A stretch of DNA of 64,000 nt from Alkalicoccus chagannorensis DSM 18086 (GTDB lineage: Bacteria > Bacillota > Bacilli > Bacillales > Salisediminibacteriaceae). Position numbers and translations under genes: made by a program. Location of the stretch: NCBI RefSeq assembly GCF_000429725.1, contig NZ_AUCK01000016.1, forward strand, positions 1-64,000, read 5' to 3'. Below, piece after piece: positions 33,283-35,249 of the stretch (positions within the stretch are counted from its first letter, which is position 1; each line of letters starts with the position of its first letter). The notes beneath the pieces were generated by a model. It did no database searches. It saw only the letters and a list, made by a program, of their open reading frames with translations, and was not told where the DNA came from.

Positions 33283-33846
33283 CTATCTCCCGGCAAACAC
33301 ATGCTGGCGGAAGACTTCGGCGATTTTCTCCGGGGAAGCATGCTTGTCCGGCGAAGGATCAATGTGTCTCCAGATCGGCTGCAGTGACGTATCAAATATC
33401 CACGTGCCACCCTGGATGTAGACGTCCTGTGTTTTCATGGATTTCATAACCACCTGCCGCTGGGTTTCTTCTTTCGGCAGAAAAGGACCTAGCCTGCCGG
33501 ACAGTGCTCCAGCTCCGACGAGTGCAAGCATCTTCAATTTCGGCATCGTGACATGCCCCATATCGTAGTAGAGCTCTCTGCCCGGATCCGTGTATACCGG
33601 GAACGGCAGCGGACCGAATGCCTCCATAAATTCCTGCACCAGAGCGGTGTCAGAAGGAAAAACAACGAATAGATCGCCGCCTGCACGGCGGATGTTCTCA
33701 TACTGCTCGCGCAACTGCGCGAGGTGCCTCCGGCAGATGGGTCAGCCGGGGTGACGGACGAATACAGCAGCGGTAGGTCTGTCGCCGAGCAGGGAACCGA
33801 ACGTTACCCGTTCGCGCTGCGGCGTTTCCAGTTTATGATCATACAT
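33283..33846 (-). CDS. Peroxiredoxin-like selenoprotein candidate (TGA = selenocysteine, SelL/PRXL2-related)
   Basis: Reading from ATG 33846 (AAAGGAG 9 nt upstream) gives 187 codons to the stop at 33283, interrupted only by an in-frame TGA at 33742-33744, codon 35. The surrounding protein is continuous: AAVFVRHPG-U-PICRRHLAQL. In the AhpC/TSA-like PRXL2/SelL-related redox family this position is the first Cys of CxxC, so TGA replaces the active cysteine, giving UPIC. Downstream, EQYENIRRAGGDLFVVFPSD and FGPLPFPVYTDPGRELY match the family. A 7-bp hairpin with an AGUU loop starts 21 nt after the U of TGA. Alternative: a nonsense-mutated pseudogene restarting at ATG 33714, which would lack the active site. 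No selA/B/C/D genes are in the window. Confidence 0.8.
33706..33744 (-). promoter_or_regulatory. Candidate bacterial SECIS element
   Basis: Runs from the TGA (33742-33744) into the coding sequence. CTCGCGC pairs with GCGCGAG (33706-33723) around a four-base AGTT loop at positions 29-32 counted from the T of TGA. A G among the first two loop bases, 16-37 nt from the UGA, is the pattern used for bacterial SECIS elements recognised by SelB. A weaker competing hairpin (GAG-GCAC-CTC) is at positions 15-24. Confidence 0.65.
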
Positions 33847-33912
33847 CTTTACCGACTCCTTTCGATTCTCCATTCTCATTCCACCGCAGAGGTAGAATCA
33901 AACACGCTCTCT

Positions 33913-33995: not shown

Positions 33996-35249
33996 ATGTC
34001 CACATACGTTCAGTCAGCAGGCGCACAGGAAGATATCGAGAAAACATCGGACATGCAGCTCAACCGGCCGCAGATGAAGCTCGTCATCGGCGCGCTGATC
34101 GTTTCAGCACTGCTTGCTGTTTATTTAATTGTCAGTCAGGAACCGATGCATCCCATTCTGCTGCTGCTCGGCCTGCTGCTCGGCTACACCCTCTTTCACG
34201 CACGCTTCGGTTTCACCTCTGCTTTCCGCCGGTTCATGGCCGTCGGTAACGGCAAAGCCATCCGCTCTCATATGGTGATGCTCGCCGTCGCGGTTACCTT
34301 ATTTGCACCTATTCTTGCTTTTGGCATCTCCTTTTTTGATGTGGAAGTGAGCGGGTATGTCTTTCCAATCGGAACAGCGGTCATCGTCGGTTCTTTCCTG
34401 TTCGGCATCGGCATGCAGCTCGGCGGCGGCTGTGCTTCCGGTACCCTTTTCGCTGTTGGTGCTGGACGAACAGTGATGATGATCACGTTGATTTTCTTCA
34501 TTATTGGTTCTGTCATTGGTGCGGCCCACCTGCCGTTCTGGACCGATCAAATGCCGAATGGCGAGGCGGTTTCTCTCGCGGAAACGACCGGCCTCGGCTA
34601 TGGCGGCGCCTGGCTCATCTCCATTGCTTTATTCGGGTTGATTGCCTGGATTACCCTCGTCGTGGAACGGAAGCGGAAAGCCCCTAAAATGGCGCCCCTC
34701 CCTTCATCTCAAGGTTGGAAACGCGTGCTGCGTGGTTCCTGGCCGCTGTTTGCCGCTGCGATTGCTCTGGCCGTGTTGAATGCGTTGACGCTGATGACCC
34801 GGGGAGAGCCTTGGGGAGTGACGTTTGCGTTTGCGCTGTGGGGCTCTCAGGCAGCGGAACTGCTCGGCTTCAACGTGGCAGCCTGGGATTTCTGGCAGGG
34901 GGATAACGCGGATGCGCTCCAGGCATCCATCTTCGCAGACACCACGACGGTCCTGAACTTCGGTGTGATTCTCGGCGCGTTCATGGCTTCTGCTGCAGGC
35001 GGGCTGTTCCGTTTCGACGGCATCAAGCCGGGCAACGTCGCTGCAGCTGTTATTGGTGGTCTCCTCATGGGATACGGTGCCCGCCTGGCTTTCGGTTGTA
35101 ATATCGGTGCGTACTTCGGAGGGATTGCCTCCTTTAGTCTGCACGGCTATATCTGGGCAATCATGGCCCTGCTCGGTACCTTTCTCGCCTTGTACCTGCG
35201 GCCGCTTTTCGGTCTCAGCGTACCAAAGTCCAAAGATACCTTCTGCTGA
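33996..35249 (+). CDS. YeeE/YedE-family transporter (sulfur/selenium type)
   Basis: 417 residues with about ten membrane segments and two internal YeeE/YedE halves. The pore-type motifs are GIGMQLGGGCASGTLFAVGAG-like (about 144-163) and GYGARLAFGCNIGAYFGG (about 363-380), each with a conserved Cys; the TsuA member passes thiosulfate past such cysteines. YedE branches occur in selenium-utilisation clusters. AGGAGG 8 nt before the ATG. Divergent from the selenoprotein candidate with a 149-bp shared region, so supply of sulfur or selenium to that pathway is a reasonable inference. Substrate not proven. Confidence 0.88.
   Translation: MSTYVQSAGAQEDIEKTSDMQLNRPQMKLVIGALIVSALLAVYLIVSQEPMHPILLLLGLLLGYTLFHARFGFTSAFRRFMAVGNGKAIRSHMVMLAVAVTLFAPILAFGISFFDVEVSGYVFPIGTAVIVGSFLFGIGMQLGGGCASGTLFAVGAGRTVMMITLIFFIIGSVIGAAHLPFWTDQMPNGEAVSLAETTGLGYGGAWLISIALFGLIAWITLVVERKRKAPKMAPLPSSQGWKRVLRGSWPLFAAAIALAVLNALTLMTRGEPWGVTFAFALWGSQAAELLGFNVAAWDFWQGDNADALQASIFADTTTVLNFGVILGAFMASAAGGLFRFDGIKPGNVAAAVIGGLLMGYGARLAFGCNIGAYFGGIASFSLHGYIWAIMALLGTFLALYLRPLFGLSVPKSKDTFC

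Follow-up and report, generated by a model that had tools for sequence, protein, structure and literature searches.

The locus considered here lies in a 64,000-nucleotide stretch of Alkalicoccus chagannorensis DNA, called the window below, and the question that it raises is whether a TGA at codon 35 of a peroxiredoxin-like (Prx-like) gene ends translation or encodes selenocysteine (Sec). On the minus strand, a frame runs from the ATG at 33846 over 187 codons to a terminal TAG (33285-33283), and its sole further in-frame stop is this TGA, at the first position of a UxxC motif (RHPG-U-P-I-C in the translated frame). The hallmark of a selenoprotein gene, an in-frame UGA at the position of a redox Cys with coding sequence on both sides, is therefore present. 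A preliminary description of this DNA had already pointed to a single 187-codon frame with a lone TGA at codon 35, in a CxxC-type motif, and to a good Shine-Dalgarno sequence, and reading of the minus strand confirmed both (Table 1). It had also expected gene callers to report only the piece from 33714, and the standard list of open reading frames indeed holds nothing of the gene except a 143-aa piece from TTG 33714; such truncation is expected from ordinary gene calling because the in-frame stop codon would be recoded. From the comparisons below we consider it very probable that UGA 35 is decoded as Sec through SelB and a hairpin downstream, yielding a PRXL2-type Prx-like enzyme.

Table 1. 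Positions of the predicted selenoprotein gene, its signals and its neighbours in the window.
Feature	Position	Strand	Remarks
Predicted selenoprotein gene	33283..33846	minus	187-residue PRXL2/AhpC-TSA_2-type Prx-like protein; predicted Sec residue 35, Cys residue 38
In-frame TGA (UGA), codon 35, predicted to be read as Sec	33742..33744	minus	TGA in 50/50 loci; Cys in 4/4 stop-less matches read
Shine-Dalgarno AAAGGAG	33856..33862	minus	Read directly; 9 nt 5' of the ATG
Predicted SECIS hairpin	33706..33723	minus	7-bp stem 33723-33717 / 33712-33706; loop AGUU 33716-33713; 25 nt from UGA to loop
SigB-like promoter candidate GTTTGA-14 nt-TGGAAT	33878..33903	minus	Weak, putative; read directly
Divergently oriented gene of a membrane protein, YeeE/YedE sulphur-transport family	33996..35249	plus	Association only
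Small downstream protein, 97 aa	32945..33238	minus	Possibly co-transcribed

TGA occupies the codon-35 column in 50 of 50 homologous loci, the window's own included, and Cys stands at +3 from it in every one. From this set, which may count a few species twice, the repeats L061, L073 and L076 were dropped and L057 and L058, members of another Prx-like group, were excluded. The preliminary description had argued that a TGA falling on the catalytic Cys is unlikely by chance, which this column bears out, and that relatives with a different residue or a decayed gene would speak against Sec; in the stretches read of the 50 close loci, neither another residue nor an extra in-frame stop was seen. When GTDB contigs were scanned, 16 loci encoding a relative were detected, each (16/16) with TGA at this codon; their records are titled Cytobacillus, Mesobacillus and Bacillus, with some further names besides. 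Among 60 near-kin genomes (the own genome is counted here, as it is in the 398 Bacilli genomes and the 50 loci), 26 had a match, and one TGA was present in 25 of the 27 matches, L057 and L058 being two of these 25; the remaining two were weak and stop-less (E 1.2e-4 and 5.2e-4) and lie outside the four stop-less matches read that are described below. When the best 8 candidates per genome were scored in 398 Bacilli genomes, 12 genomes matched the family profile at E <= 1e-15, each (12/12) with one TGA. A plasmid search with the protein returned 3 records, none covering 80% of the query. As a side observation, the titles of three loci look wrong (L020, Chryseobacterium; L032, Pseudomonas; L022, Paenibacillus), as their genes nearly match those of Cytobacillus/Mesobacillus.

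It had further been proposed that homologues with Cys should align it with the TGA. A SelL-related model, with the best 8 candidates per genome scored in 398 Bacillota genomes, found 22 matches in 17 genomes, and the four stop-less ones (L074, L075, L086 and L088), all distant, were read and carry Cys in the TGA column. This count rests on segments read separately, the tree sequences having been chosen by a motif that requires a stop or Cys. In the tree, the 50 Bacilli loci separate from all other sequences with a support of 1.000, and a Cys orthologue within this group was not found in the 60 relatives and the 398 Bacilli genomes. The branch is apparently Sec-only in Bacilli.

The sequence on both sides of the TGA evolves as coding sequence. 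In 17 close relatives (window gene excluded), single-base codon differences numbered 802 synonymous to 193 not on the 5' side and 2207 to 716 on the 3' side, and the read-through product of 187 aa (TGA taken as C) scores above the cut-offs of three Pfam families: PF13911 AhpC-TSA_2, the best match (47.8 bits, cut-off 27, residues 44-164), PF00578 AhpC-TSA (36 bits, cut-off 26, residues 5-100) and PF08534 Redoxin (30.3 bits, cut-off 26.6, residues 21-104). The family-like character of both flanks, noted beforehand from the letters, is thus upheld. That the TGA arose recently by nonsense mutation in a decaying gene, as the lone downstream fragment in the reading-frame list might suggest, is barely conceivable with the codon fixed throughout the 50 loci, with the other 38 proteins of the alignment (A2) 32-51% identical to the window protein, and with mainly synonymous differences on both sides; the pseudogene reading was rejected, the TGA being conserved across families.

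Directly behind the UGA, the transcript can form an 18-nt hairpin of -12.0 kcal/mol. According to PMC13188914, a bacterial SECIS has a loop of 3-9 nt with G in one of its first two places and a spacing of 16-37 nt, and the window hairpin, with G second in its AGUU loop and a spacing of 25 nt, agrees with this model. Energetically, the 44-nt stretch on its own does not stand out from its shuffles (z -1.28; 24 of 200 shuffles were as good), and the case for a SECIS is therefore carried by the comparative evidence. In 39 sequences (one of which is a duplicate), 99.2% of pair cells hold standard pairs, and two of the seven pairs show changes on both sides; pairing falls to 64.7% or less when the partners are slid by 1-3 columns. 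The covariation score of these sequences was reached by 0 of 500 shuffles, although relatedness can inflate it, while their number of pairs changed on both sides was reached by 6/500 and their number of pair types by 21/500. All seven pairs are intact in 48 of 50 loci, with compensatory changes present. The codons are also held: Gln is CAG and Leu is TTG (CAG-TTG) in 50/50 loci, and over the six stem-loop codons the third-position differences among the 17 close relatives amount to 0.118, whereas they reach 0.479 on the upstream and 0.477 on the downstream side. Judged from these nucleotide comparisons, the hairpin is conserved beyond the need of the protein.

The same data bear on a restart at TTG 33714, in which the first 34 codons would be a leader and the product would be devoid of its first redox residue. 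A 143-aa frame does begin there, but the proposed start overlies the hairpin loop, the residues just 5' of the TGA are Arg in 50/50, His in 49/50 and Gly in 50/50 loci, and the differences in this supposed leader are mainly synonymous. The AhpC-TSA and Redoxin matches also cross the TGA (the AhpC-TSA_2 match begins only at residue 44), and we regard a restart as extremely improbable.

The host genome (3.52 Mb in 38 contigs, 99.92% complete) contains the components that Sec insertion would need. One tRNA-Sec exceeds the gathering score (58.2 bits, cut-off 47) and has the anticodon tca, and SelB (336.5, cut-off 242.25), SelA (462, cut-off 267.9, TIGR00474 on the locus protein), SelD (393.9, cut-off 125) and selenouridine synthase (338, cut-off 241) were found with it, all within roughly 8 kb. 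All four of selA, selB, selD and tRNA-Sec, for which the preliminary description had recommended a search, are thus present at one locus, as in a genome that makes selenoproteins. A PF00266 match had been considered as a pointer to SelA and was set aside as too broad, TIGR00474 identifying SelA instead. The SelD frame has an in-frame TGA of its own at the active site (AGUGCKI), followed by a hairpin with the loop GUC, and it therefore holds a second predicted Sec codon of this genome. In the standard list of open reading frames this selD (L017:10747-11799) begins late, at a TTG.

The TGA form also keeps company with SelB. In the 60 relatives it is present in 25 of the 43 genomes with SelB over the cut-off and in 0 of the 17 without (one-sided Fisher 1.2e-5, relatedness ignored). 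When the best 3 candidates per genome were scored in the 398 Bacilli genomes, SelB was found at E <= 1e-75 in 85, and these carriers include 11 of the 12 TGA genomes (Fisher 2.4e-7, relatedness again ignored). The association is one-way, since 18 of the 43 SelB genomes among the relatives have no copy of the gene. An exception is G165, which has the TGA gene (L062, hairpin intact) and tRNA-Sec, and in which neither the family model nor the SelB of a congener found SelB; its assembly has 30 contigs and is rated 100% complete, and our guess is an assembly gap or a recent loss.

Low-level readthrough of UGA by Trp occurs in Bacillus, and UGA 35 might accordingly be passed without selenium, by near-cognate Trp or leaky termination. 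G165 is the only case that fits such readthrough; against it, TGG is found at this codon in 0/50 loci, the stop-less matches read carry Cys, the hairpin is kept at the nucleotide level, and the TGA form was found in none of the 17 SelB-lacking genomes among the 60 relatives. Selenium-free readthrough is for these reasons highly improbable. The original proposal that the TGA means Sec is supported by the machinery, the Cys homologues, the conserved hairpin and the co-occurrence with SelB, with one exception.

With UGA 35 taken as a Sec codon, the following course can be proposed. At the ribosome, SelB carrying Sec-tRNA(Sec) would bind the hairpin just 3' of the UGA, and Sec would go in at codon 35 in place of termination. 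The product would be a PRXL2-type Prx-like enzyme with the active site Sec35-Pro-Ile-Cys38, in which, because of the UxxC motif, Sec35 may be the nucleophile and Cys38 the resolving residue. Attack of the selenolate on a peroxide (or a disulfide) is most likely; Cys38 would then resolve Sec35 by forming a selenenylsulfide, from which a thioredoxin-like reductant would regenerate the enzyme. The coding, machinery and SECIS steps of this course lean on sequence evidence, and the chemistry, the reductant and the substrate are suggested by family relations.

Those relations came from comparison of the A2 profile with solved sequences, of which 4 matched. The nearest is the prostamide/prostaglandin F synthase of PDB 9us9, which we take to be PRXL2B (E 8.7e-10, profile positions 9-178), with its CxxC opposite the UxxC; a thiol peroxidase and ResA matched more weakly. 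The relation to PRXL2 named in the preliminary description is borne out by this match, although 9us9 is a Cys form and a distant relative, the likeness being one of sequence profile. Enzymes of the prostamide/prostaglandin F synthase family reduce peroxides or endoperoxides. By analogy, we infer reduction of a peroxide/endoperoxide or a disulfide, with thioredoxin as the reductant.

An alternative that accepts Sec recoding makes the protein mainly a thiol:disulfide oxidoreductase, or a protein of selenium/sulphur handling, and not a peroxidase. The motif is UxxC instead of the TxxU of Sec peroxiredoxins, the weak matches include thiol-disulfide oxidoreductases of the ResA type, and a YeeE/YedE-type sulphur transporter gene is divergent from the gene in the window and in four same-genus genomes (beside the homologues L035, L037, L038 and L040, 4/7 of the same-genus genomes). 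This neighbour has no in-frame TGA, and it scores 150.8 bits with the selenium-metabolism YedE/FdhT model, below the cut-off of 350. The AhpC-TSA_2 match and the prostamide/prostaglandin F synthase likeness favour peroxide/endoperoxide reduction instead, and we hold the oxidoreductase role to be possible, if on the doubtful side. On the other flank, the gene of the 97-aa protein, which had no match in Pfam or NCBIfam, also lies next to the homologue at 5 further loci (L035, L037, L038, L039 and L040).

Upstream of the Shine-Dalgarno sequence, the candidate promoter is called SigB-like on what we take to be the SigB consensus. A stricter SigB pattern, picked after the window had been inspected, is present 5' of 10 of the 50 homologues, against a mean of 1.12 and a maximum of 5 in 200 mononucleotide shuffles; the site in the window fails this stricter pattern. 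The SigB-like site is thus a weak hint of possible stress control.

Prx-like selenoproteins with UxxC have been on record since at least 2005 (PMC1088965), and several described families come close to the protein in the window. The nearest is the SelL-related redox protein (NF040769), which is matched by 39 of 39 A2 proteins (best E 6.2e-36); the two genes that exceed its cut-off among the 398 Bacillota genomes both have a TGA as well. However, the window protein scores 73.8 bits, below the cut-off of 120, as do 9 of 10 other members tested, and the tree sets the Bacilli loci apart. The catalogue of PMC13188914 covers 119 families and includes PF00578 UxxC/UxxU, PF08534 UxxC and cd02970 UxxS, and a PF13911 UxxC row does not appear in its family table. 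The Prx-like thiol:disulfide oxidoreductase selenoprotein listed there (PF00578, UxxC/UxxU) shares Sec in the first place of UxxC and the PF00578 match, but the best Pfam family of the window protein is PF13911. Conversely, the Prx-like (AhpC/TSA) selenoprotein (PF13911 in PMC9312934, cd02970 in PMC13188914) has the same Pfam family PF13911 with UxxS, whereas Cys at +3 makes UxxC here. The Sec peroxiredoxin (PF00578, TxxU, from the table of PMC13188914) has selenium in a Prx-type active site, as predicted here, although the window protein has no TxxU and its Sec comes first in UxxC. A published description of the Bacilli branch was not found in the literature searched. Because NF040769 is matched but mostly below its cut-off, the Bacilli branch is a new one within the known Prx-like selenoproteins, and the mechanism is not new.

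These results add a well-supported predicted selenoprotein branch to Bacilli, for which an early survey gives 3 selenoproteins in Bacillales (PMC1794560), compared with SelB in 85 of the 398 Bacilli genomes here. Annotation may miss the family because the gene is expected to be truncated and because, of 11 members scored one by one (the window protein included), 10 fall below the cut-off of NF040769, the one specific NCBIfam model found. To hypothesize, this PRXL2-type family may exist in Bacilli only as a selenoprotein, with an invariant coding SECIS core GCAGUUGC behind its active site and, in some members of the group, SigB-type stress control, and may be lost, and not converted to Cys, when the Sec machinery is lost; we regard this proposal as evenly balanced between right and wrong. 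An apparently Sec-only family would offer a clean case for asking why sulphur does not replace selenium.

Several further Prx-like genes with an in-frame TGA were seen in relatives. A second Prx-like group (L057, L058 and L092) has the TGA in RGT-(W/F)-U-P-N-C, while loci of other Bacillota (L077-L084, L087 and L091) have NRGF-x-U-P-(F/Y)-C with a TGA in each; L084, which has an additional in-frame stop, is possibly a decayed gene or a misreading. In two genomes, Prx-like genes are paired and adjacent, each with its own in-frame TGA (L071/L089 in G677 and L072/L090 in G806), and one of the pair in G806 has UxxG, so that it is without the usual second Cys.
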